Positions 7,938-27,174 are shown, counted from the first letter of the stretch. The stretch is DNA of 62,022 nucleotides from Sulfurimonas sp. (GCA_021648405.1 JAKISX010000003.1:1-62022), one strand, 5' to 3'. Numbers and translations are program-made. The notes: a model not told the origin generated them from the letters alone.

Positions 7938-9485
7938 CTAAATCCCTCTTGCTGGCTTATCTAAGAAACCAAATCCTGTACTACCTTTAACATCAGATGT
8001 TGACTCAAGCATCTCGATAGCTTCTTCTCTGTGTGCTGCTGGAATTACAAATCTATCATCAAACTTAGCTAATGAAGTCATCTGATAGATAGCTTCTGCA
8101 GTAGCTGGATTAAGTCCACAATCACTTAATGCTGCATTTGATTTCGCTTCTGAAATATCACCAACAGTAAGATGTCTTCTATAAACTCTTACAGCCATTA
8201 ACTTTTTAAGCTTGTCGGCCATTAGTGATTCGTCGCCATTGCTAAATAAGTTAGCCATATATTTAAGTGGCATTCTCATATTATCAATAGATCCAAAAAT
8301 TTCATCTATACTTGTATCGTATAACCACTTATCATCCCAAGCTTTTGCTTTAGAGTTAAGAGTTGAAAGATCTTTAGAGTTTTCACTAATTGATGCCATA
8401 ACTGGTAACATTGGTGGAACATAAAATAAGTTAGGCAGTGTTCTGAACTCCGCATGTAGTGGGAGTGCAATTTTCCATTCTTTTACAAACTTATAAACTG
8501 GTGACTCTTGAGCTGCTTTAATAGTTGAATCTGCTACGCCATTTTGTTGAGCTGCTTTAATCACTCTAGGATCAAAAGGATCAAGATATATATCCATATG
8601 CTCATCAATTAAGCTACTATCACTTGCTGATGCTGTTGATTGAATTTTATCTGCATCGTATAACAATACACCTAAGTATCTGATTCTACCAACACAAGAG
8701 TGCATACAAGCTGGTGCTAATCCTGATTCAATTCTTGGAAAACATAATAAACATTTTTCAGACTTACCTGTACTCCAGTTATAGTATGTTTTCTTATAAG
8801 GACATGCAGTTACACACATTCTCCAAGCTCTACATACATTTTGATCAATTAAAACAACACCATCTTCACCTCTTTTATAGATAGCTCCTGATGGACATGA
8901 AGCTACACAAGCCGGATTTAGACAGTGATTACAAATACGAGGTAAATAATAAAACGCTATTTGCTCTAACTGAAACATTGCTTCTTGCTCTGTTGCAGAA
9001 AGATTGTGTAAATTTGGATCTTTTCTAGCATGCTCAGGAGTTCCGCTTAAATCATCATCCCAGTTTGGACCCATTTTAATATCAATAGGCTTACCAGTAA
9101 TTAGTGAAACTGGTCTAGCTGTTGGTTGAATATCCATCTGTGGTGATTCTGTTAAATCTAAATACTTATAAGTAAATGGCTCATAGTAATCATCTATTAC
9201 CGGAAGATTAGGATTATGAAATATATTCAGTAATCCTTTCATCTTACCAGCACCTTTTAGTGAGATGTCTCCAGAACTACTTCTGTCCCATCCACCTTTA
9301 TATATATCTTGGTCTTCCCATTTAGTAGGGTAACCAGTTCCCGGTTTAGTTTCAACATTGTTGAACCACATATATTCAGCACCTTTACGGTCTGTCCATA
9401 TATTTTTACATGCAACTGTACAAGTGTGGCAACCTAGACATTTATCTAGGTGAAAAACCATCGACATTTGTGATCTTACATCCAT
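7938..9485 (-). CDS. narH: Respiratory nitrate reductase beta subunit (Fe-S)
   Basis: 515 aa; four Cys clusters including CLGCHTCTVACKNIW, CNHCLNPACVASCPSGAI, CRAWRMCVTACPYKK, CLLCFPR. Confidence 0.97.
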   Translation of the reverse strand: MDVRSQMSMVFHLDKCLGCHTCTVACKNIWTDRKGAEYMWFNNVETKPGTGYPTKWEDQDIYKGGWDRSSSGDISLKGAGKMKGLLNIFHNPNLPVIDDYYEPFTYKYLDLTESPQMDIQPTARPVSLITGKPIDIKMGPNWDDDLSGTPEHARKDPNLHNLSATEQEAMFQLEQIAFYYLPRICNHCLNPACVASCPSGAIYKRGEDGVVLIDQNVCRAWRMCVTACPYKKTYYNWSTGKSEKCLLCFPRIESGLAPACMHSCVGRIRYLGVLLYDADKIQSTASASDSSLIDEHMDIYLDPFDPRVIKAAQQNGVADSTIKAAQESPVYKFVKEWKIALPLHAEFRTLPNLFYVPPMLPVMASISENSKDLSTLNSKAKAWDDKWLYDTSIDEIFGSIDNMRMPLKYMANLFSNGDESLMADKLKKLMAVRVYRRHLTVGDISEAKSNAALSDCGLNPATAEAIYQMTSLAKFDDRFVIPAAHREEAIEMLESTSDVKGSTGFGFLDKPARGI

Positions 9486-9514
9486 TCTATTCTCCTTAAT
9501 TATATTTTGTGTGC

Positions 9515-12500
9515 TTAAAAAACAACACTGTCTTTTTTTCTAACAACAACATGAGCATCTCTGTTTACAGCAACTGGACCCCAATAGTTGAAGTAGTATG
9601 TAAACTGAGCATAACCACCAGCTAAAAGATTTGGCTTAAGACGAACTCTAGTAATAGCATTGTTACCACCACCTCTTGTTCCACCTTTAAATCCTGGACG
9701 CTTATCTGTTAATGGGATACTTATTGTTCTCTCAATAGTATGATAAACAATACACGCACCCTTAGGTATTCTAGCACTAACACAAGCTCTAGTTGCATAT
9801 ACACCATTATCATTAAGGACTTCAACCCAATCGTTATCTTTGATTCCAAGATCTTTAGCATCAATTTCACTAATCCAACAAGGCTCCATACCACGAGAAA
9901 GAGTTAACATTCTAATGTTGTCCATATAAGTAGAGTGAATATGCCATTTACCATGTGGAGTTAAACAACTAAGCACTTTTGCATTACCCTCAACTACTGT
10001 TTCTCTTAAATCCCCATAAACTTCTTTGTTTGGTGAAGGTTTAAAAGTTGGTAGATGCTCACCATGCGCAATATAAAGCTCATGATCAAGGTAAGTATGT
10101 TGCCTACCAGTTAATGTTCTCCAAGGGACCATTTTTTCAACATTGTAAGTATAAGCAGCATAAGCTCTGTCTGAATTTATAAGACCAGACCAAACCGGAG
10201 AAGAATTATATCTACGAATAGTTTTTTGTAAATCTCTATAGTTTATATGAAGATGTTCTTGTCCCTTAGCAATATCTTTAAGATCTAGACCAGTTTTCTT
10301 CTCTGCATTCGCATAAGCTTTGTTTGATAACTTACCGTTAGTAACACTAGATAAGTGAAGAACAGCGTCAATAGCAGAAGTATCTTTTTTCAAAGATGGA
10401 TAAATTTTACCATTGAATGGTTCTAGCTCCGTAATAAAATGATTAGAATCAATCATTTCATCATAAGCTTCTTCAGTTTCGTAACTATTACCGTGAGCAC
10501 CAGCACCATTTCTCATGTTTGGCCCAAGGCGGATATATTTGTCATAAAGCTCTGTGTAGTTTCTTTCTTGGATAGCAATTTTATGCATTGTTTTTCCAGG
10601 GATAGCTTCACATTCGCCTTTGTACCAATCTTTAATAGTTGATTGAGTAATCTCATCAGCCGTATCATGCCCTAGAGGAAGTGTTACAACATCTTTAACA
10701 GTACCTGGCAAGTGAGTTTTTGCTAATTCACTTACATCTTTAGCAATATCACTAAAAATTTGCCAGTCTGTTTTTGATTCCCATACAGGCTCAATAGCAG
10801 CACTAAGTGGATGAATAAATGAATGCATATCAGTAGAGTTAATATCAGCTTTTTCATACCATGAAGCAGATGGAAGAACGATATCTGAATATAGTGCAGA
10901 TGTATCCATTCTAAAGTTAAGGTCAATTACTAAATCCATTTTACCTTCAGGAGCAACATCACGCCATACAACTTCTTCAGTTGCAGCTTGATCAGTTGCA
11001 GTGATATTATGAGTATTTGTACCAAGATAGTGTCTAGCACAATATTCTTGACCTTTCATACTACCGCCAATTGCATTACCTCTCCAAATATACCATACAC
11101 GAGGAAAGTTTTCCTCAGCATCTACATCAGAAACAGCATATTTTAATTTTTTGCTTTTTAGTTCCTCTAATACATACTTTTGAATTGTCGCATTATCATC
11201 ACTTCCAGCTTCTTTAGCAACCTCTAATGAACTTTTGTCAAATTGAGGGTAAAAAGGCATATGTCCCATTCTAACTGATTTAAAAATATCATCAGCCATA
11301 TGACCACGAGTATGCTTGTTGTCAGGTACAGTATTATATTCTGCATGTTTAGAATCGTATCTGTACTGGTCAGTATTCATATAGTGCCAGATTGGACCTT
11401 GTTGCAATCTTGCAGTTGCATTCCAGTCTTTTGCAAGAGCGATAGGTCCCCATGAATCAACAGGAGCAAGTTTTTCTTGTCCAACATAGTGATTAATACC
11501 ACCACCATTTTTACCAACTGAACCAGTAAAAATAAGCGCCATTGTAGCAGCTCTATACATAAGGTTTTGGTGATACCATTGATTAATACCAGCACCAACG
11601 ATAACCATACATTTACCCTCAGTTATCTCACCAGTATTACCCCACTCTCTAGCGATACTAATGATAGTTTTAGCATCAACACCTGTGAAGATTTCTTGCC
11701 ACGCAGGAGTATAAGCAGCAGTTTTATCATTATAATCTTTAGGATATTCGCCCTCTAGACCACGATTTACACCATACTGTGCAAAATGAACATCAAATGT
11801 AGTTGTAACTGCAACTTTTTCACCACTTGTAGTAGTGATATATTTAACAGGAACACCTCTCATTCTTTGTTCATCTAAACCAAAGTCATCAAAAGCAGCT
11901 TGAACTACACCATCATTATCATTGATAAATGTAAGTGTAGGGTCGTAAGCTTTATCATCGATAGAGCTTTCTAGTTTCATGTTCCATTTACCAGTCTCTT
12001 GCTTATCCCATCTGTGACCCATACTACCTTTTGGTACTACAAACTCTCCTGATGTTGCATCATGCTGAATAAATTTCCAATCACCATTTTCAATATCTTT
12101 ATGCTCAGCTAACTCGTTAGCTCTTAAAAGTCTACCTGGCTTAATAATACCTGTTTCATCTGCTTCAATTTTTACTAAGTATGGAACATCTGAGTATTTT
12201 TTCAAGTAATCATTAAAATATGGAACTTGTTTGTCATGGTGAAACTCTTTAAGAACAACATGTGTAATAGCTTGCCAAAAAGCACCATCACTACCAGCGT
12301 GAAGTGGAATCCATTGATCAGCAAATTTACTAACCATACTAAAGTCAGGTGCACATACGATAGTTTTTGTACCATTATGTCTAGCTTCTGCAAAGAAGTG
12401 ACAATCCGGAGTTCTAGTCATATTAAGGTTTGCACCCATATCTATAATCATCTTAGAATTATACCAGTCAGCACTTTCACAACAATCTGTTTGCTCACCC

Positions 12501-13156
12501 CAAATTTCTGGAAACGATGGTGGAAGATCACAATACCAGTCATAAAAAGAGATGTTCATACCGCCAAAAAGTTGTAAAAATCTTGAACCAGCTGCATAAC
12601 TAAGCATTGACATTGCAGGAATTGGAGAGAATCCAACTACGCGGTCTGGACCATATTTTTTAGCTGTATATATGGTAGCATTAGTCATAATCTCTCTTGC
12701 TTCTTCCCAAGATGCTCTTCTAAATCCACCTCTACCACGAGCGTGTTGGTAAGATTTTCTTTTTTCTTTGTTTGCTTGAAGATTAGTCCAAGCTACCATT
12801 GCGTCTCCGCCAGCTTTACTTTTTTCTTCTCTATAAGCATCAAGTAATGCACCTCTAATTAAAGGGTACTTAATTCTAATTGGGCTATATAGATACCAAG
12901 AAAAAGAGATCCCTCTTTGACAACCTCTAGGCTCATACCCTGGTAGTTTACTATCGATTTCTGGATAATCTAATTGTTGAGTTTCCCATACAACAATTCC
13001 ATCTTTTACAGCAACTTGCCAAGAACAACTTCCTGTACAGTTTACACCGTGCGTACTTCTAACAATCTTATCATGCGCGAATCTATTTCTATAAAACTCT
13101 TCCCATTTACGCGTGCTAGGATTTACTATATCTTCTATCCAACTCATATTATGCAT
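9515..13156 (-). CDS. narG: Respiratory nitrate reductase alpha subunit (Mo-bisPGD)
   Basis: 1213 aa; HDKIVRSTHGVNCTGSCSW, GPDRVVGFSPIPAMSMLSYAAG, YDWYCDLPP match NarG; no Tat signal seen. M4 (13147) has better SD spacing (GGAGG) than M1. Confidence 0.97.
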   Translation of the reverse strand: MHNMSWIEDIVNPSTRKWEEFYRNRFAHDKIVRSTHGVNCTGSCSWQVAVKDGIVVWETQQLDYPEIDSKLPGYEPRGCQRGISFSWYLYSPIRIKYPLIRGALLDAYREEKSKAGGDAMVAWTNLQANKEKRKSYQHARGRGGFRRASWEEAREIMTNATIYTAKKYGPDRVVGFSPIPAMSMLSYAAGSRFLQLFGGMNISFYDWYCDLPPSFPEIWGEQTDCCESADWYNSKMIIDMGANLNMTRTPDCHFFAEARHNGTKTIVCAPDFSMVSKFADQWIPLHAGSDGAFWQAITHVVLKEFHHDKQVPYFNDYLKKYSDVPYLVKIEADETGIIKPGRLLRANELAEHKDIENGDWKFIQHDATSGEFVVPKGSMGHRWDKQETGKWNMKLESSIDDKAYDPTLTFINDNDGVVQAAFDDFGLDEQRMRGVPVKYITTTSGEKVAVTTTFDVHFAQYGVNRGLEGEYPKDYNDKTAAYTPAWQEIFTGVDAKTIISIAREWGNTGEITEGKCMVIVGAGINQWYHQNLMYRAATMALIFTGSVGKNGGGINHYVGQEKLAPVDSWGPIALAKDWNATARLQQGPIWHYMNTDQYRYDSKHAEYNTVPDNKHTRGHMADDIFKSVRMGHMPFYPQFDKSSLEVAKEAGSDDNATIQKYVLEELKSKKLKYAVSDVDAEENFPRVWYIWRGNAIGGSMKGQEYCARHYLGTNTHNITATDQAATEEVVWRDVAPEGKMDLVIDLNFRMDTSALYSDIVLPSASWYEKADINSTDMHSFIHPLSAAIEPVWESKTDWQIFSDIAKDVSELAKTHLPGTVKDVVTLPLGHDTADEITQSTIKDWYKGECEAIPGKTMHKIAIQERNYTELYDKYIRLGPNMRNGAGAHGNSYETEEAYDEMIDSNHFITELEPFNGKIYPSLKKDTSAIDAVLHLSSVTNGKLSNKAYANAEKKTGLDLKDIAKGQEHLHINYRDLQKTIRRYNSSPVWSGLINSDRAYAAYTYNVEKMVPWRTLTGRQHTYLDHELYIAHGEHLPTFKPSPNKEVYGDLRETVVEGNAKVLSCLTPHGKWHIHSTYMDNIRMLTLSRGMEPCWISEIDAKDLGIKDNDWVEVLNDNGVYATRACVSARIPKGACIVYHTIERTISIPLTDKRPGFKGGTRGGGNNAITRVRLKPNLLAGGYAQFTYYFNYWGPVAVNRDAHVVVRKKDSVVF

Positions 13157-13652
13157 CCCTCCATTGACTTGACTGTGTTTGATTCACTTGTTGTCTATCA
13201 TATAATTCTTGATTAACTGATTGTTTTCTTCTTCCATTACCTAGAAGGCTTAAAATAATAAACATTATAACAGCACCTGCTACACCCATCATTACAAAAT
13301 TTTCTCCACCTGCACTACCAGGATTGTTTACTGCATCTAATACAAATGCATCAAGATCAGCAATCTCCTCTTTTGTTAGGGGCTTACCTTTGTATGCTTC
13401 TTGCATAACTGGTGATGACATGTTTTCAACAGAACCTAGCGAATACTCAAAAGTACCACCCATACCTGTTAAATCCATTGCCAATGTACCTCCGCTTATA
13501 ACAGCGGAACTATTAACATTGTGACAAACCACACATGATACAGCACCATTTTCAAATGACTTTGTTCCATCATATAAATTTGCACCATTTTCTACACTTG
13601 CAGCAAAACATGCTGCTGAAATAGACAAACCAACTATAAGACGTTTTATCAT
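13149..13652 (-). CDS. Membrane-anchored mono-heme cytochrome c, NarC-like
   Basis: 167 aa: N-terminal signal sequence, CVVCH heme motif, C-terminal TM helix (FVMMGVAGAVIMFIILSLL); SD AAGGAGG; overlaps narG ORF. Confidence 0.82.
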   Translation of the reverse strand: MIKRLIVGLSISAACFAASVENGANLYDGTKSFENGAVSCVVCHNVNSSAVISGGTLAMDLTGMGGTFEYSLGSVENMSSPVMQEAYKGKPLTKEEIADLDAFVLDAVNNPGSAGGENFVMMGVAGAVIMFIILSLLGNGRRKQSVNQELYDRQQVNQTQSSQWRDA

Positions 13653-13963: not shown

Positions 13964-14728
13964 ATGCAAAATAACACTTTCGCATATACATCAAGTACAC
14001 TACTTAATGCATATAAAAAACGACGAAATGAATTAACACCTTTACTAAAGAAAAAGAAAGAAAAGGATGAAGAAAAAAAAATTCACCTAGCTCTACTATC
14101 AATTGATTTATGTATCCAAATTTTTAATGATGCAAATCGTGAATTTCCTAAAATCAATAAATTAATTATTGAAAAAGAAAATAAAAACATTCCATTAATT
14201 AAAAATAAAACCTCTGGAATTAAAAAACTTAAAAAAGGCATTGCTGCATTAGATGAACATGACAATATTATTTTTAAGAGAAAAATGCATTACTCTATAG
14301 AATTAGCTAATAGTTCTAGCAATCAGATACCATCTGAAATTGCTTCAAATATACTCAAAGAAAATGCTTTCTTATTTACGCATATATTACATGTGCTATA
14401 TAATAATGAAAATCAAAAAGAGGTATTTAATGCAATTTCAGCACAATTAAAATATATCATGGGATTATGTATTATAGAGCCTATATCTACTGGAAAAGAT
14501 ATATACAAAGAGATACTTAAAGAAAGAGAAAAATATGATAATACCTCAGATGAATTAGAAAGTTTCATACTTAATTCTCACCACTATTGTTTAACTATCT
14601 TACTTTTTTCAAAACACTGGATGGGATATAGAAAATTTTCCTTAGAAGAGGCAGAAAAAGCTTTAAACGAAAAAATAAACGATATTTTAAAACAAAGAAA
14701 AAGTAATTCTGCTCCTGCTCAAAAATAA
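13964..14728 (+). CDS. Hypothetical protein, Lys-rich, predicted mostly helical
   Basis: 254 aa ORF with upstream GAGGAAA SD-like sequence; no recognisable domain; divergent from the nar operon. Confidence 0.7.
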   Translation: MQNNTFAYTSSTLLNAYKKRRNELTPLLKKKKEKDEEKKIHLALLSIDLCIQIFNDANREFPKINKLIIEKENKNIPLIKNKTSGIKKLKKGIAALDEHDNIIFKRKMHYSIELANSSSNQIPSEIASNILKENAFLFTHILHVLYNNENQKEVFNAISAQLKYIMGLCIIEPISTGKDIYKEILKEREKYDNTSDELESFILNSHHYCLTILLFSKHWMGYRKFSLEEAEKALNEKINDILKQRKSNSAPAQK

Positions 14729-14730
14729 AA

Positions 14731-15714
14731 TTATTCCCAGTCAAGTAATCTTTTTTCACCCTCCAAACAACGGATATGAGTCACATCTTGGCTCATCTCT
14801 ATAACTCCACGATAGGTGCCATCATTATCACGAACAGGAAAATACTGGATATGAATAAATTGACCTTTGAAATTAATCCAAAACTCTGCTAAATCCTGTC
14901 TTCCTGCCTTAAACTCTTCTAATATCTTAATAACTTGATCTACACTTTTTGGTGGATGACAAAACCTTACTTCTCGGCCAATAATACCTGCACTTCTAGG
15001 AAAAACTCTATCCTCTCCTCTGTTATAAAATACTACTTGGTCATTTTCGTTCACATAAGTAATATCTACAGGCAAGATTCTAAAAATGGAGTTAACTTGC
15101 TCAGGTGTTAAGTAACCTTCGTCATAGTGCGTTTTGTCGTCTATAGCAAATGGTAATTTTCTTTTCTGTGTATCTTGGCCTGGATGTATATATTCATCTT
15201 CAGGATATGGTGTTGGATTTTTATCAAACATCCAGCCTATCTCTTTATCCCCATCTTTAAATTCCCTCCACTCATCTTCACTTAACATCCCCATAGCATT
15301 AGGAAAAAGTCTTCCCTCTTCTACACTTAAGAGATGCTCTATTGTTGAAAAAAGTTGTTTTGAAGAATCGTTAATATTTGAAATATCTTTTGATTTTATA
15401 TATCCTCTTAATGCTTTGATATAATCTCTAATATTATCATGCATCGCCCACATATTTTGTGATGGACTTGTCCAACCATGTTTTTCTAAATATGGAAACA
15501 GTTGATTTTCTTTTCGAATAAAATGTAAATTTATGGTTGCTAATTTTTCAAATACTTTTTCATATAATTCTAAATCTTCATTCGCATCAATAGATTTTAA
15601 TTTATCTATATATTTATTTATTAAAATATTTTCTTCCATATAGGTGCGGATAGGATGTCCATCTGGAAAATACCCATCAAAGGGGGATGGTTGGGGAAGT
15701 GAAAATTCATTCAT
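14731..15714 (-). CDS. Hemerythrin + PAS domain protein (DUF438-like)
   Basis: HFIRKENQLFPYLEKHG, EEGRLFP (hemerythrin-like) followed by LPVDITYVNENDQVVFYNRGEDRVFPRSAGIIGREVRFCHPPKSVDQV PAS motif. Confidence 0.82.
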   Translation of the reverse strand: MNEFSLPQPSPFDGYFPDGHPIRTYMEENILINKYIDKLKSIDANEDLELYEKVFEKLATINLHFIRKENQLFPYLEKHGWTSPSQNMWAMHDNIRDYIKALRGYIKSKDISNINDSSKQLFSTIEHLLSVEEGRLFPNAMGMLSEDEWREFKDGDKEIGWMFDKNPTPYPEDEYIHPGQDTQKRKLPFAIDDKTHYDEGYLTPEQVNSIFRILPVDITYVNENDQVVFYNRGEDRVFPRSAGIIGREVRFCHPPKSVDQVIKILEEFKAGRQDLAEFWINFKGQFIHIQYFPVRDNDGTYRGVIEMSQDVTHIRCLEGEKRLLDWE

Positions 15715-15791: not shown

Positions 15792-18389
15792 TTATTTTTT
15801 ATTTGCTTTATTTATCTCTATATACTCTGCTTGTGAAAAATTTGGAACATCATCATAAGAAAAAACTGCATAATATTTATGTGTATCTTTATCTCCAAAA
15901 CTATCATAAGTGTAGTTATCTGTCCCGCCATAAAGTTTTTGCCCATCATATGGGGAGCATGGCACTCTAAATGGATTTTTTACAACTATCGAACCTTTAT
16001 AAGCATCATCATTTGGGATATCCCATTCTAGCTTAACGACGCCATCATTTAGAGAATGTCTTAAATTATCAACGCTCTTGGGCGCAATTTTTCTTTTTTT
16101 AATATAATTTATTACTAGCGATGGTCTTTTATCTCTTTTTGAATCAGTCCAACTAACTTCTTTAGATTTACAAAATGATTTATCAGATGATGCTGATATA
16201 ATAAATGTAACTTCTGGATTTTTATTTGCATTTCTAAGCATCTCTTTTATTGCATGTTTATCAAAAATAAACCTTTGTTTAGCCCTATCTTTAATATCTG
16301 ATATACTTACATCATAACCAATTCTTTCAATAATTTTTCTATTTTTAATCTTTTTATATGTTTTTTCTCCACCACATGAGATAACCATCTCTATATGAAA
16401 ACGAAGAGAATTTATAGAATTTATTTTATTTACTTCCATATCTATATATGCATCAGATATAACTGTATTATCCATATTTGGTAAATTTGATAAATCAAAT
16501 TCTATACAACCATATTTTTTATCTCCATTTTCATCAAATCCAACATCTAGTTTTGATTCAATCATCTCTTTTTTAGAGGCTGTTAATTCAGAGAATGATT
16601 GTAAATCTATTCTAGCTTCATTTATAGTATATGATATGTCTAATTTTGGTCTAAAAGAAAGCCCTTCACTAAATTTTCCGTACCCAATATCCCACTGCAT
16701 CAATTGTGATGCACGATTAAGAGGAAGTGATAATGGTCCTTGCATTCTAAAATAAGCCTCTCTTCTTTTTAATGATTTTTGTAAAACCTCAATCTCTTGT
16801 GCAGCAAAGTCATATTTTCTCCAAATACCTTGTGATAACTGAGCTGAACCAGTAGGTCTATCTATATAACTCAATATTTTAGCATTTTTAATATCATCAA
16901 AACTAGAAATTTTATCTATTGTTCTCTCATCAATTTGAGCAACCCTCCATTCACCAAAACTCTCTACTTGAACAGATACACGATTCATGGGATAAAAAGA
17001 TATTGATGCGCTTGTGATTATTGCATTTTGTGGGATAGTATTTAAAGAAAATCCACAAACTCCAAAACATTCACCTCTAGATTCAGAGATACCAACAAAT
17101 AGAGAATTATTTCCAAAATGATCACTATTTTTTTTAGTTTTTTCACCAACATAACCAATTTTATCAGCTGATGGGTATAAAATTTTTGAAAACATATTGT
17201 ATGCAGGTTGTGTTCTCACAGCACACTTTTGCGCAAATGGAGATTTTATATTTCTATGTTCACATGCTGCACGAATATAGTAACAAAAATTAGTAGAAGA
17301 TGGTAGATTTTTATCAGTAAATACTTTTAATTTTGTCATCCCAATTCTATTTGAAGCCTGCGCATAACCTTTTTTTTTAGTTGAGCGATATATTTCATAA
17401 TATGCATCTTGTGAATCTGAATATTCCCAAGTAAACTCCACCTCTTTTGATGTCACTGAAGTACTAATAAAATTTTCAATCCTTGGCAAAAAGTTGTCTT
17501 TTGAGTAATTATTTGCTTCAGATAAAGCAAATATAAGCGCTGGAATATTTTCATCTATATGCCCTCTCATATGCTCTATGTAATCACTAATATTTCTAGT
17601 CCCTACCTCTGCCACCAAGGATAAAGCACCTTGTGAATAATAAAATTCCCTACCGCTTCCTGAAATAAGATGTACAGGCGGTTTTCCCATGTGAACGCCA
17701 TATTCCCTACTAGATTCTTTTCTTATCTCTTCAGCCATATTTGATGCTAAAAGGTTTAAATCAATAGCATCCACAGCATCTTCATGTATGAAATTATGAG
17801 CTGGAAAAAACACATTTCCTTGTGAATGATAATCAAGTGCTATTGTTATGTTTTTATGCTCTAATACAAAATCTCTTAACGCAACTGTTTCAGGTTCACT
17901 AAAAGGATGTGGACCTGAATAAACATTTGAAGACATATCCTTATTTTGAGTAAATCCAACTTCGAAGTTTCTATTTAAATCTACACCAAAACTTCCATCC
18001 CCATTTACCCTTCTATTTTTTCTCCAAAAAGAAAAATGATTTCTTGAGTATTCAAAACCATCTGGATTTGCACATGGAACCATGTAAAGAGTCGTTTTAT
18101 CTAAAATTCTATTTAATTGTGGATCATAATCAATATGCTCTAATATATATTTTGCAAAACTAAGTGAAAGTTCAATTCCTACCCACTCTCTTGCATGAAT
18201 AGTGCCTGTATAAAATAATGCTGGTTTACTCTTATGTAATTTAACATCTTTTGTGATAGTTACAGCTATTATCTCTCTATCTTCCCAAGTATTTCCGATT
18301 GATTGGACTTTAAAAAGGTTTGGATTTGTTTTTTGTGCAGATTTGAAAAATTCTATACATTCGTCATATGAAGTATATTGTTGTCTCAT
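15792..18389 (-). CDS. M14 zinc carboxypeptidase with C-terminal fibronectin-III/DNRLRE-like modules
   Basis: GTIHAREWVG (HxxE), NPDGFEYS, GVDLNRNF, LDYHSQG, SLVAEVGTRN catalytic motifs; FnIII-like EVEFTWEYSDSQDAYYEIYRS and VKLEWDIPNDD; no signal peptide. Confidence 0.85.
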   Translation of the reverse strand: MRQQYTSYDECIEFFKSAQKTNPNLFKVQSIGNTWEDREIIAVTITKDVKLHKSKPALFYTGTIHAREWVGIELSLSFAKYILEHIDYDPQLNRILDKTTLYMVPCANPDGFEYSRNHFSFWRKNRRVNGDGSFGVDLNRNFEVGFTQNKDMSSNVYSGPHPFSEPETVALRDFVLEHKNITIALDYHSQGNVFFPAHNFIHEDAVDAIDLNLLASNMAEEIRKESSREYGVHMGKPPVHLISGSGREFYYSQGALSLVAEVGTRNISDYIEHMRGHIDENIPALIFALSEANNYSKDNFLPRIENFISTSVTSKEVEFTWEYSDSQDAYYEIYRSTKKKGYAQASNRIGMTKLKVFTDKNLPSSTNFCYYIRAACEHRNIKSPFAQKCAVRTQPAYNMFSKILYPSADKIGYVGEKTKKNSDHFGNNSLFVGISESRGECFGVCGFSLNTIPQNAIITSASISFYPMNRVSVQVESFGEWRVAQIDERTIDKISSFDDIKNAKILSYIDRPTGSAQLSQGIWRKYDFAAQEIEVLQKSLKRREAYFRMQGPLSLPLNRASQLMQWDIGYGKFSEGLSFRPKLDISYTINEARIDLQSFSELTASKKEMIESKLDVGFDENGDKKYGCIEFDLSNLPNMDNTVISDAYIDMEVNKINSINSLRFHIEMVISCGGEKTYKKIKNRKIIERIGYDVSISDIKDRAKQRFIFDKHAIKEMLRNANKNPEVTFIISASSDKSFCKSKEVSWTDSKRDKRPSLVINYIKKRKIAPKSVDNLRHSLNDGVVKLEWDIPNDDAYKGSIVVKNPFRVPCSPYDGQKLYGGTDNYTYDSFGDKDTHKYYAVFSYDDVPNFSQAEYIEINKANKK

Positions 18390-18450
18390 GCTACTATCTT
18401 TAAAGAAAATCTTTTTTTTGCAAATTTATTTATTATCATTATTTTTCCGA

Positions 18451-18475
18451 TTTTATTTTATTTTATTTTATTTTA
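18451..18475. repeat. Pentanucleotide microsatellite (TTTTA)5
   Basis: Five perfect TTTTA units spanning the 3' end of the ATP-grasp gene at 18463. Confidence 0.95.
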
Positions 18476-19362
18476 GAATCTATTAAATCAACTATTTTTT
18501 CAATTTTTTTATCATTAAATGTTAATCCGATTTTTTCTTGTTCTGGTGTTGCAAATGCTGAAATTGCGTTTACCTCTAAAACTACATATTCTTCTTTTTC
18601 TCTATCATAAATAATATCAACACCAGCTATATCAAGCCCTAAAACTTTTGTTGCTCTTTTTGCTATTTCTATTATTTCATCATTTGCTTCACGAAGAATA
18701 ATACTACCACCGCTAGAGATATTTGTTCTCCAATCCCTTGCATTAGCTTTTCTTCCATAACATGAGATATATTCACCATTAACTATATCGATACGATAAT
18801 CTGAAAAGTCGTTATCTATAAACTTTTCTAAATATATATGACGAATACCAGTTTGGTTTAAAAATGGCAACAATGAGTCTATGCTTTGACAAGATTCTAA
18901 TAATATCATGCCATTACCACCCCATCCATCAATTTGCTTAAAAATCAATTTTTTCCATTCTTTAAATTTTTCAACTAAGTACTCTGGTGATTCTCTATGA
19001 CATAAAAAAAACTCAGTTGTTTTTATGCCCGCTTTATTCAATGCTATATTAGATTTAAATTTATCCTCTGCTAGTGCAAATGATTGATAACTATTCACTG
19101 TGCTTATATATTTATCTATTGTTTCATACATATATTTTTGCGTATTTGTTTGTTCTCCTGCATTGTATGAAAAAAATAAATCTAATTCTAACATACTTAC
19201 ATTATTACAAATAATACCCTCTTTAGAACCTTTTGCAAAACGAAGATTAAGATTTGTTTGTACTTCAATCTCTCTCTCCATTAATTGATCTATAATTTTT
19301 TTTTCTATATCCTTACCGCCACCATTATGATACATCCACATACCAATTTTTTTATTTGCCAT
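18463..19362 (-). CDS. RimK-like ATP-grasp ligase paralog B
   Basis: DWRTNISSGGSIILREANDEII..LGLDIAGVDIIYD...VVLEVNAISAF; similar along its full length to the upstream gene. Confidence 0.85.
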   Translation of the reverse strand: MANKKIGMWMYHNGGGKDIEKKIIDQLMEREIEVQTNLNLRFAKGSKEGIICNNVSMLELDLFFSYNAGEQTNTQKYMYETIDKYISTVNSYQSFALAEDKFKSNIALNKAGIKTTEFFLCHRESPEYLVEKFKEWKKLIFKQIDGWGGNGMILLESCQSIDSLLPFLNQTGIRHIYLEKFIDNDFSDYRIDIVNGEYISCYGRKANARDWRTNISSGGSIILREANDEIIEIAKRATKVLGLDIAGVDIIYDREKEEYVVLEVNAISAFATPEQEKIGLTFNDKKIEKIVDLIDSKIK

Positions 19363-19395
19363 AATATTTCCTTTGCAAATTAAATTTGAAATAAT

Positions 19396-20301
19396 TTATT
19401 TTTTTAATGTCCTTTTGTCTATTAAATCTACTATTAAATCTATTTTTTTATCATTAAAATCTAGTCCTATTTTTTCTTGTTCTGGTGTTGCAAATGCTGG
19501 AATTCCATTTACTTCTAAAACTATATATTCCTCTTTTTCTCTATCATAAATAATATCAACTCCACCAATATCAACTCCACATGCTTTACATGCTTTTATC
19601 GCTATATTTATTATCTCATCATTAGCCTCACGAACAAAAACACTACCACCGCTACCTACATTTGTTCTCCAGTCAGTTCCGCTAGCTTTTCTTCCATAGC
19701 AAGATACAAATTGCCCATCAACTATATCTATCCTAAAATCAGTATTATCATAATTAATAAATTTTTCTACATAAAAATATCTTAAATCCATCTGATTTAA
19801 AAATGGCATTAACATGTCTAAGTTTGCTTCATTCTCGATTTTTGTAAGTCCAACTCCACCCCAACCATCAGTTGGTTTATAAACCATTTTATCCCATTTT
19901 TTGATGATTTTTTTGAGTTCATATCCATCATCTCTATGACAAAGCTTATAATCAGCTGTTTTAATACCATTATTTCTCAGTACAAAAGAGGTATGAAATT
20001 TATCCTCGCTTAGCGCAAAAGAATCGTAAGAGTTAATCATAGGAATTACTCTATTTAATGCTTGATAAATATACATTTGGTATTGTGTTTGTTCTCCAGC
20101 GTTATAAGAAAAGAACAAGTCTAGCTTATTTAGTTTCTCATCACCATGCATTATTCTTGAATTTTTTGCTATAGTGTTTCTTAGGTTAATATTATTTAGA
20201 GTAGTTATCTCTCTTTCTCTTAATTTTTTAATAATATTTTTTTGAATTTTATCGCCACCGCCATTGCTATAGAACCACATACCAATTCTTCTATCGCCCA
20301 T
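19396..20301 (-). CDS. RimK-like ATP-grasp ligase paralog A
   Basis: KPTDGWGGVGL, DWRTNVGSGGSVFVREANDEI, GVDIGGVDIIYD, VLEVNGIPAF typical of RimK/glutathione-synthase-like ATP-grasp. Confidence 0.88.
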   Translation of the reverse strand: MGDRRIGMWFYSNGGGDKIQKNIIKKLREREITTLNNINLRNTIAKNSRIMHGDEKLNKLDLFFSYNAGEQTQYQMYIYQALNRVIPMINSYDSFALSEDKFHTSFVLRNNGIKTADYKLCHRDDGYELKKIIKKWDKMVYKPTDGWGGVGLTKIENEANLDMLMPFLNQMDLRYFYVEKFINYDNTDFRIDIVDGQFVSCYGRKASGTDWRTNVGSGGSVFVREANDEIINIAIKACKACGVDIGGVDIIYDREKEEYIVLEVNGIPAFATPEQEKIGLDFNDKKIDLIVDLIDKRTLKK

Positions 20302-20304
20302 ATA

Positions 20305-21417
20305 TTAATCCTTTTTAAAATCTAAGTTTTCAACAAAAAAAGTAAAGAGTTTTTTACTTAAATCTATTCTACTCTCAAAACTACTTTTTTTTGCTCTCTC
20401 ATTTATAGTATGATCACCATCTCCAAATGGACCAAATCCATCTAAGGTAATAACTCCGCAAGAACTAATGATATTTGCATCACTTACACCACCTCTTTCT
20501 TCGTATTTTAATGTTTGCAAAGTTATATTTTGTATATTTTTTATTAATTTTAAAGAGCTTTGTGTTGTTTGCATAACATCTCTTTGAATTCCTCCAGATA
20601 ATGTTGCTGATGTTGCATCCACATATGTATTCTCAACAATTATATTGATTTGTTTTAGTACCCTATCTCTTTCTTCTAAGTTTTTATATCTAAGCTCAAA
20701 AACTAATCTAGCATGTGGTGATATGGTATTTGCTCCAATCCCACCATTAATTTTACCAACATTGACAGTAGTCCCTTTACTTAAATCTGTAAGCTTTACT
20801 AATTCTTGAAGTTTATATGATGCTTCTAAATTAGCATCATTCCCTTCTATATAACAGTTTCCTGCATGAGCGGCTTTGCCCTTTATTTCTATGAAAAAAG
20901 TACCAACACCTTTTCTTGCTGTTACAACCTCACCATTAATTCCAGCAGCCTCATAAACAAAACAATAATCATAATCTTTTGCTATAGATGTACTTAAATA
21001 TTTAGAATCATCACTTCCTGTTTCTTCGTCACTAACTAAAAGAACATCAATGTTTTTAATATCAATATTTTGTTTTTTTAGCTCCCTTAATGCCTCAAGT
21101 ATTACAATAATACCACCTTTCATATCGCATACACCTGGTCCATATATCCACTCTTCATCTTCGGAAAAATTTTCAAATTTTTGTGGAGGAAAAACTGTAT
21201 CTAAATGTCCTAGTAAAAGTAGTTTTTTAGAATTTTTTTGAGATACTGAAGTATAATGTTTATGATTACCAATATTTTTACGCTTATGTGTCTGTACTGT
21301 AAAACCTAGTTCACTAAACCAACTATCAAATATTTTCGCAACTTTGTCTACACCACTTTTATTTTTAGTATATGAGTTTATATTTACAATAGTTTTAAGA
21401 TCATCTAAATAATTCAT
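20305..21417 (-). CDS. M20 family metallopeptidase (carboxypeptidase G2-like)
   Basis: LLGHLDTVFPP, YGPGVCDMKGG, SDEETGS, GGVSDAN, GDGDHTINERA motifs; no signal peptide. Confidence 0.9.
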   Translation of the reverse strand: MNYLDDLKTIVNINSYTKNKSGVDKVAKIFDSWFSELGFTVQTHKRKNIGNHKHYTSVSQKNSKKLLLLGHLDTVFPPQKFENFSEDEEWIYGPGVCDMKGGIIVILEALRELKKQNIDIKNIDVLLVSDEETGSDDSKYLSTSIAKDYDYCFVYEAAGINGEVVTARKGVGTFFIEIKGKAAHAGNCYIEGNDANLEASYKLQELVKLTDLSKGTTVNVGKINGGIGANTISPHARLVFELRYKNLEERDRVLKQINIIVENTYVDATSATLSGGIQRDVMQTTQSSLKLIKNIQNITLQTLKYEERGGVSDANIISSCGVITLDGFGPFGDGDHTINERAKKSSFESRIDLSKKLFTFFVENLDFKKD

Positions 21418-21494
21418 ACATGGATTATACTACTTATTTAATTAAAGTTTGTAAAAAGTAAATTGAGTTTATATAATGAAAGTTTTGAAGTAAA

Positions 21495-21520
21495 ACTTAG
21501 AAGATTATTTTCTTCTAAGT
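21495..21520 (-). terminator. Hairpin ACTTAGAAG-N8-CTTCTAAGT overlapping the rplS stop, followed by T-rich tract
   Basis: 9-bp perfect inverted repeat; minus strand continues TTTTACTTC. Confidence 0.65.
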
Positions 21521-25766: not shown

Positions 25767-26222
25767 TTAAGGGCACTTTATTTTTCCTAAAAATGCATTT
25801 AACTGATTAGCAAATAACTCTGCATCTTTTTTTGAAAAAGGCTTTGGACCACCTGTCATCTCTCCACTTTCACGAATTTTTTCCATCAAGTTTCTCATTG
25901 CAAGGTATTGTTTAATATTATCAACACTATAAAGTTCACCCCTATGATCTATGGCATGTGCATTTTTACTTATGATTCTATCTGCTAATGGGATATCGGC
26001 TGTTATTACTAAGTCACCCTCTTTTGTCATCTCAACTATTTTATGATCAGCTTCATCTGCACCTTGCTCAACTATGATATATTCTATTAAACTAGACTTT
26101 CCAATATTGATTTTTTTATTTGCTATAACTATTGTTGAAATTTTCAAACGCTCAATCTGTTTGAGAAGAATTGGTTTTAATGAATTTACAAAAGCATCAC
26201 CATCTACATATATTTTAAACAT
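25767..26222 (-). CDS. YaiI/YqxD family protein (DUF188)
   Basis: FKIYVDGDAFVNSLK...VEQGADEADHKIVEMTKEGDLVITADIPLADRIISKNA...DHRGELYS. Confidence 0.92.
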   Translation of the reverse strand: MFKIYVDGDAFVNSLKPILLKQIERLKISTIVIANKKINIGKSSLIEYIIVEQGADEADHKIVEMTKEGDLVITADIPLADRIISKNAHAIDHRGELYSVDNIKQYLAMRNLMEKIRESGEMTGGPKPFSKKDAELFANQLNAFLGKIKCP

Positions 26223-27174
26223 TTAGCAACTCCAATTTTTTCTCTTTACTTAGTTGTTTTATTGCATATTCTCTTTGCATTGCATTAACTTTGTCATCAC
26301 AGTTTTCATAGTAAACTAACTTCACTGGTCTTCTAGCTTTCGTATATTTCGCACCGAGTTTTGTACCGTTATGTTCTTTTACTCTTCTATGTAAATCAGT
26401 TGTAATTCCAGTGTAGAGTGTATTATCATTACATCTTATCATATATACTTTCCACATGCTAATAGGTGTTACAAATGTATTTACTCCATCAACCTGATAA
26501 AACTTTACCTCATTATATTGACAATATTTTATACAATATCCACACACTAAAGAGTCTAGCATATCTTCGTAATCTTTTAGACCCTGCCCTTTTAAAGTGC
26601 TAATATCTTTTTTTAGTATATCGTGTGAAAATAACTCTTTTTTTAAGTAGTTTTTATAAATTTCTAATTGCTCTTTTATAAACTTCGTTGAGCGACCTTT
26701 TTTTCTTTTGTATTGCAAAATTTTATGATTATTAAAACACATTGCGATTGTGGAGTGGGTATATACTTCAAAAATTACTTTATCTGATTTATAATCTCTT
26801 TTAAACCCATACTCTGAGAGTTTTTTAAACAAAACTTCACTTCTAATTTGTGGAGAATATTTTGTAAGTATTTTTTTATTTGCTGGAAGCATTGCAATTT
26901 TATATTTTGCAAAGTCTTTATTGAATTTTTTTTCTACTTCACGATTGCCTGTTTCATTTGGCACAATAAGTGGAGCATCAACTCCAACATAAATTTTATA
27001 GTCTTTATATTTTTGTATCTCTTGGATAATCTCATCAATTGATTTAATAAGTTTTAGATCTAAAATTTTTAATTTTTTTGCATACGAATTTGATTCTAGG
27101 ACACAAAAGCCTGAAAGGTTTTTCTCTCCCCAAGCTAAATCTATACCTATATACACACTATTCAAAGTGTACAA
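26215..27174 (-). CDS. DUF429 (RNase H-like predicted nuclease) fused to GIY-YIG endonuclease domain
   Basis: N-term YIGIDLAWGEKN, YVGVDAPLIVPNETGNR, FEVYTH, MLDSLVCGYC; C-term WKVYMIRCNDNTLYTGITTDLHRRVKEHN...AMQREYAIK. Confidence 0.88.
   Translation of the reverse strand: MYTLNSVYIGIDLAWGEKNLSGFCVLESNSYAKKLKILDLKLIKSIDEIIQEIQKYKDYKIYVGVDAPLIVPNETGNREVEKKFNKDFAKYKIAMLPANKKILTKYSPQIRSEVLFKKLSEYGFKRDYKSDKVIFEVYTHSTIAMCFNNHKILQYKRKKGRSTKFIKEQLEIYKNYLKKELFSHDILKKDISTLKGQGLKDYEDMLDSLVCGYCIKYCQYNEVKFYQVDGVNTFVTPISMWKVYMIRCNDNTLYTGITTDLHRRVKEHNGTKLGAKYTKARRPVKLVYYENCDDKVNAMQREYAIKQLSKEKKLELLNV

Follow-up and report, generated by a model that had tools for sequence, protein, structure and literature searches.

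A conserved four-gene module of ATP-grasp proteins and M20 and M14 metallopeptidases in Campylobacterota, with a possible role in amino-acid ligation and removal

A cluster encoding ATP-grasp ligases and metallopeptidases was analyzed in a stretch of 62,022 nucleotides from Sulfurimonas sp. (GCA_021648405.1 JAKISX010000003.1:1-62022; this whole stretch is referred to as the window), which is contig C46 of a Campylobacterota metagenome-assembled genome (1.68 Mb, 82% complete). The cluster is a genuine conserved module, beyond chance neighbours, and consists of four components: an M20 metallopeptidase, a RimK/MptN-like ATP-grasp ligase of approximately 300 aa (named AG1), a second RimK-like ATP-grasp protein of 420-506 aa (named c3), and an M14 carboxypeptidase of approximately 860 aa. 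An earlier note on this DNA, made from the sequence alone, had considered the M20 gene, two tandem RimK-like ligase genes and the M14 gene to be the components of a candidate amide-ligation and trimming system. The tandem pair is indeed present in the window, but it is not the conserved pair of putative writers, which is formed by AG1 and c3; a gene list confined to the window would omit c3 and therewith one of the four components.

Conservation of the four genes and displacement of c3

The neighbourhoods of the ATP-grasp genes were compared across 39 Campylobacterota loci and one Photobacterium locus (40 loci), and the conserved set comprises the four genes named above, with no conserved fifth gene in the cluster at these loci. 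Two or more module genes are adjacent in 39 of the 40 loci, the exception being L034, in which the ATP-grasp gene stands on its own, and the commonest order is M20, AG1, c3 and M14, either on a single strand or with the M20 gene divergent. All four genes are present in 17 of 200 Campylobacterota genomes, while nearly all remaining genomes carry none of them; gene by gene, and uncorrected for relatedness of the genomes, AG1 was found in 18, intact c3 in 17, M14 in 17 and a close M20 (>400 bits) in 19 of the 200. The concern raised in the earlier note that the genes might rarely co-occur is thus not borne out, given their near all-or-none distribution and their proximity at the loci compared. 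Partial carriers are G045, which has M20 and an AG1 close to the end of a contig; G110, with M20 only; and G088, in which a fragment of c3 is found. Carriers are spread over several families, and non-carriers occur within some of those families. The c3 remnant of G088, which is from the same genus and lacks the module, contains several stop codons (G088:C1:157104-157472) and suggests loss of the module.

Outside Campylobacterota the search covered plasmid and phage records together with a single pattern scan of genomes, and the module was retrieved in the marine Photobacterium sp. DA100, in which the M20 gene is divergent from an AG1-c3-M14 array and the cluster holds nothing further. Identities to the DA100 proteins are 68% for c3 (over the core, with L018 as query) and, with the window proteins as queries, 53% for AG1, 56% for M20 and 44% for M14, c3 being the most conserved component. 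This arrangement would fit transfer of a self-sufficient set. No description of the four-gene cluster was found in the literature searched, an earlier description being possible.

In the genome from which the window derives, c3 is absent from the window and located on contig C12, directly behind efp. The same holds more widely: nine of ten Sulfurimonas genomes with AG1 and M14 but without a c3 gene in the cluster encode c3 elsewhere, and this displaced c3 is at or near efp wherever efp shares its contig, the tenth genome (G019) having no efp in its assembly. Among genomes whose cluster includes c3, none was observed to have it at efp (in G015 efp is outside the loci read). As the cluster and efp positions are complementary, c3 has changed its place rather than disappeared. 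Several module-free Sulfurimonas have efp followed directly by dnaE, and because of this adjacency the c3 gene behind efp looks inserted. The efp-dnaE junction itself is variable (L055 8146-10142; L096-L125), being occupied by c3 in some Sulfurimonas and being empty or holding other genes elsewhere.

Features of the four proteins

The family assignments of the earlier note, namely M20, RimK-type ATP-grasp (twice) and M14, agree with Pfam. The first gene of the cluster (20305-21417, minus strand) specifies an M20 metallopeptidase of 370 aa, assigned by matches to Peptidase_M20 (4.9e-21) and M20_dimer (3.2e-17) and by its best PDB match, which is carboxypeptidase G2 (CPG2; 8.6e-25). The CPG2 metal and catalytic residues are retained (H71, D73, D98, E131, E132, E156 and H336), as are H184, N230, R243 and R279, which match the residues of CPG2 that contact the substrate carboxylate. 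These residues point to an active, exopeptidase-like site, and not to glutamate specificity as such.

The M14 carboxypeptidase of 865 aa (15792-18389, minus strand) was assigned by Pfam (Peptidase_M14, 7.7e-56), fold search and a structure model. Its catalytic domain, at approximately residues 1-295, is followed by beta-sandwich domains of FN3-like and DNRLRE-like type; the DNRLRE match (3.5e-08) is just short of the cut-off, and FN3 was found in the orthologue of L018. The AlphaFold model (mean predicted local distance difference test score, pLDDT, of 71.6), which is usable for the fold only, likewise shows beta-rich domains beyond residue 295. The catalytic domain is nearest to carboxypeptidases T, A and B, and in the fold search it best matches the pancreatic carboxypeptidases A and B. 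The zinc-binding H65, E68 and H188, the N139/R140 clamp and the catalytic residue E261 are invariant across 18 orthologues, and R67 and R123 are also kept. In agreement with the earlier note, M20 and M14 both have the appearance of C-terminal exopeptidases.

R247 of M14 is also invariant, and in a HMMER alignment corresponds to Ile255 of carboxypeptidase A4, an S1' specificity residue. At that position carboxypeptidase B has Asp, while carboxypeptidase O has Arg. Carboxypeptidase O favours acidic residues (PMC6214572), and the invariant S1' Arg would accordingly predict acidic C-terminal residues as the substrate of M14. Accessory beta-domains such as those of M14 are commoner in secreted proteins. 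No N-terminal extension is present in any M14 orthologue and, in keeping with the earlier note, no signal peptides are evident by eye in the cluster, the orthologues beginning at the same residue; M14 is presumably cytosolic. In three Nitratiruptor-type loci a gene for a CitMHS-family transporter overlaps the 3' end of the M14 gene (L019 14212-15270, L045 6395-7468 and L052 13855-14904), and in L040 such a gene (14115-14903) is located 256 nt from it.

The two ligases of the window are ATP-grasp b (AG1; 301 aa; 19396-20301, minus strand), assigned by Pfam RimK (2.2e-20), identity and tree, and ATP-grasp a (AG1 lineage 2; 299 aa; 18463-19362, minus strand), assigned by Pfam RimK (1e-22) and tree. 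They are 57% identical to each other. ATP-grasp b shares approximately 84% identity with the AG1 proteins of most Sulfurimonas loci and falls in the same clade, while ATP-grasp a is placed in a separate supported clade with AG1 of L016, L038 and L039. The tandem pair was seen only in the window and its close relatives L036 and L037, and is a lineage-specific variant in which two old AG1 lineages adjoin.

Both ligases score far below the cut-offs of the NCBIfam equivalogs MptN, LysX, RimK, CofF and N-acetylglutaminylglutamine amide (NAGGN) synthetase; they belong to the RimK/MptN/LysX type, and by these models neither is orthologous to any enzyme so far characterised. MptN is the best profile for ATP-grasp b (145 bits versus an equivalog cut-off of 350), the RimK family model TIGR00768 gives 118 and 131 bits for the two ligases (cut-off 143, not reached), and the E. 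coli-type RimK model gives 56 and 52 bits (cut-off 331). MptN and CofF are alpha-glutamate ligases whose cofactors, methanopterin and F420, are not expected in the bacteria that carry the module. AG1 has hits to RimK, MptN and LysX, and LysX and ArgX are among the nearest proteins of solved structure for AG1 as well as for c3. Invariant in AG1 are the ATP lysines K101 and K142 and the metal triad D249, E263 and N265.

The c3 protein matches Pfam RimK with values of 2.1e-13 to 3.4e-10 and contains a C-terminal helix-hairpin-helix (HhH) region, which stands out clearly in some members but only faintly in the rest. Its nearest solved relative, a distant one, is LysX. Lysines K95 and K135 as well as D241 and E255 are invariant.

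Proposed function and alternatives

The joint occurrence of two enzymes of ligase type and two of C-terminal exopeptidase type suggests a cycle of ligation and removal, and our tentative preference is for a cytosolic, ATP-dependent cycle acting on amino acids, probably glutamate-like residues. In such a cycle AG1 and c3 would use ATP to attach an amino acid, most probably an acidic one such as glutamate, through an amide bond to a carboxyl group of an acceptor, and the CPG2-like M20 together with M14, with its predicted acid-binding S1' pocket, would take the added residue off. As the module encodes no acceptor, this would have to be something general, and presumably cytosolic. The HhH region of c3 and the size of M14, with its several accessory beta-sandwich domains, tip the balance slightly towards a protein or peptide C-terminus, a small-peptide metabolite being nearly as probable. 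If such a cycle operates, the module would represent a compact four-enzyme set, present in two phyla, which writes and erases amide-linked amino acids, and in which c3 is an uncharacterised ATP-grasp protein more conserved than its partners.

The cycle would resemble glutamylation by RimK and RimB, in which RimK adds glutamates to S6 and a protease (RimB) removes them (PMC11957791), with two metallo-exopeptidases replacing the retropepsin. Common to both are a RimK-superfamily ATP-grasp ligase, a residue-removing enzyme and a patchy, accessory distribution (PMC11957791; PMC12239564). The module differs in that AG1 is below the RimK cut-off, in that it has a further ATP-grasp protein, c3, whose C-terminal part holds the HhH region, in that there is no sign of S6 as target, and in that its putative erasers are M20 and M14 metallopeptidases; no retropepsin RimB is part of the conserved cluster, which at the 40 loci holds only M20, AG1, c3 and M14. 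In tubulin glutamylation, a TTLL ATP-grasp enzyme acts as writer, and a cytosolic M14 carboxypeptidase with acidic specificity acts as eraser. The module could be likened to this as a way of working, having an ATP-grasp writer and an M14 eraser, whereas its M14 is nearest to carboxypeptidases T, A and B, its ligases are of RimK type and tubulin is absent. A stronger version of the proposal is considered unlikely. In it AG1 and c3, the latter steered by its HhH domain of nucleic-acid-binding type, would attach acidic residues to some conserved macromolecule, from which the two metallo-exopeptidases would erase them; this would be a new, reversible form of amino-acid tagging that in bacteria mechanistically parallels tubulin glutamylation and deglutamylation.

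A number of observations weigh against the ligation and removal cycle as proposed. Where RimK and LysX have the motif [A/H]RGG, AG1 has SGG and c3 has QGG, and for this reason the ligase substrate may be other than glutamate. In c3, Glu-Cys-Ala replaces the Glu-x-Asn of ATP-grasp enzymes (Ala257 in place of Asn), which makes its catalysis uncertain, and its structure model (pLDDT of 56) is too weak for a fold search. The alignment of the M14 S1' residue requires a one-residue gap between R247 and the catalytic Glu and is thus subject to some doubt, and M14 has His at the position of Tyr248 of carboxypeptidase A. CPG2-like M20 enzymes, as this one appears to be, usually act on small substrates. 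No acceptor was found in the gene cluster compared across loci. S6, the classical RimK target, ends in an acidic or A-E tail both with and without the module; as its C-termini do not differ, S6 as target is not supported.

The S6 tails also count against a modification of the translation apparatus, in which c3 and AG1 would act on EF-P, L19 or S6 and for which we see little probability. Its appeal comes from the many Sulfurimonas in which the AG1 cluster is located behind rplS and c3 behind efp, but outside Sulfurimonas and its relatives the cluster sits among unrelated genes, a probable terminator follows rplS, and c3 at efp looks inserted, as described above. EF-P and L19 were consequently rejected as targets, their adjacency being confined to Sulfurimonas and relatives and having the appearance of an insertion site. 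It is equally improbable that the four are ordinary peptide salvage genes and chance neighbours: peptidases of the M20 and M14 types are widespread and all four proteins come from large families, but the near all-or-none distribution over 200 genomes, the retention of a displaced c3 and the occurrence of the four-gene set in a second phylum are not what such neighbours would be expected to show. Least probable of all is an amino-group carrier system of the LysW/LysX/LysK type, in which an ATP-grasp enzyme loads a carrier protein and an M20 hydrolase frees the product. The module shares with that pathway a LysX/ArgX-like ATP-grasp protein and an M20 enzyme, the family to which LysK belongs; however, the M20 is CPG2-like and not LysK-like, an M14 is added, no small conserved gene was seen in the cluster, and the LysW model was positive in none of ten module genomes versus 4 of 14 controls, by which the carrier reading is largely refuted.

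More serious, though in our view still doubtful, is a small-peptide pathway, in which AG1 and c3 would assemble free amino acids into a compound resembling a di- or tripeptide, serving as solute or for storage, which M20 and M14 would recycle. Most of the named hosts live in the sea or at vents, with Photobacterium in addition; the module is a self-sufficient four-gene unit in two phyla and has no dedicated acceptor gene, and the CitMHS-family transporter gene overlaps or is near M14 in four loci. A precedent for a ligase paired with a peptidase is found in the NAGGN osmolyte operon (asnO-ngg-peptidase), which combines ATP-grasp ligation of amino acids with an operon peptidase (PMC8070244). 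Unlike that operon, the module has no asnO or GNAT domain, other peptidase families and two separate ATP-grasp proteins: the cluster contains no asnB-like, GNAT or amidotransferase gene, as the earlier note had remarked for the former two, no GNAT-fused ligase is conserved at the 40 loci, and the N-acetylglutaminylglutamine synthetase model (TIGR03103) matches the generic ATP-grasp part only, with 22-27 bits versus a cut-off of 569. Furthermore, for a small solute it would be unusual to find an M14 of 865 aa that has accessory domains, or a ligase that bears an HhH region.

Other candidates were set aside. Anti-phage defence was discarded, there being no PADLOC match, as was a phage origin, no c3 being present in phage records or viral contigs. 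For a ribosomally synthesised precursor peptide there is little space, as the cluster genes overlap or are tens of bases apart (open reading frames of <90 aa in the flanks were not systematically searched). RimK and an M20 peptidase are also named in a salinity study of Photobacterium damselae, but the genes in question are not linked.

Layout of the cluster and its surroundings in the window

All four open reading frames are present, consecutively and on the minus strand, where the earlier note had placed them, and its intergenic distances are exact: 3 nt between M20 and ATP-grasp b, 33 nt between b and a, and 73 nt between a and M14. This last spacer (18390-18462, minus strand) was read from the sequence. 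An AT-rich run with approximately five TAAAA units (18390-18470) covers the stop codon of ATP-grasp a and the 5' end of the spacer, and as a simple repeat could vary in length.

Upstream of the cluster, a perfect 9-bp AT-rich hairpin (ACTTAGAAG/CTTCTAAGT; 21495-21519, minus strand), read by eye, overlies the rplS stop codon and is followed by T-rich sequence; it is too AT-rich for the terminator scan, and is a probable terminator separating rplS from the cluster. Just upstream of M20 is a promoter-like sequence, TTTACA-17-TAGTAT (21427-21455, minus strand), which agrees with the consensus at 9 of 12 positions, such matches being no commoner in the region than the chance count.

Beyond the other end of the cluster, a hemerythrin-PAS protein gene (14731-15714, minus strand) is convergent with a gene for a protein of 254 aa to which Pfam gives no confident assignment (13964-14728, plus strand), and both also adjoin the module in L036. 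Further along (7938-13652, minus strand), a large molybdopterin-type oxidoreductase of 1213 aa, an iron-sulfur subunit of 515 aa and a small cytochrome-like protein are encoded, a set which, by its sequence, resembles a respiratory oxyanion reductase. Finally, a 319-aa open reading frame with a TTG start (26215-27174, minus strand) appears by eye to combine a GIY-YIG-like C-terminal part with an unrelated N-terminal part.

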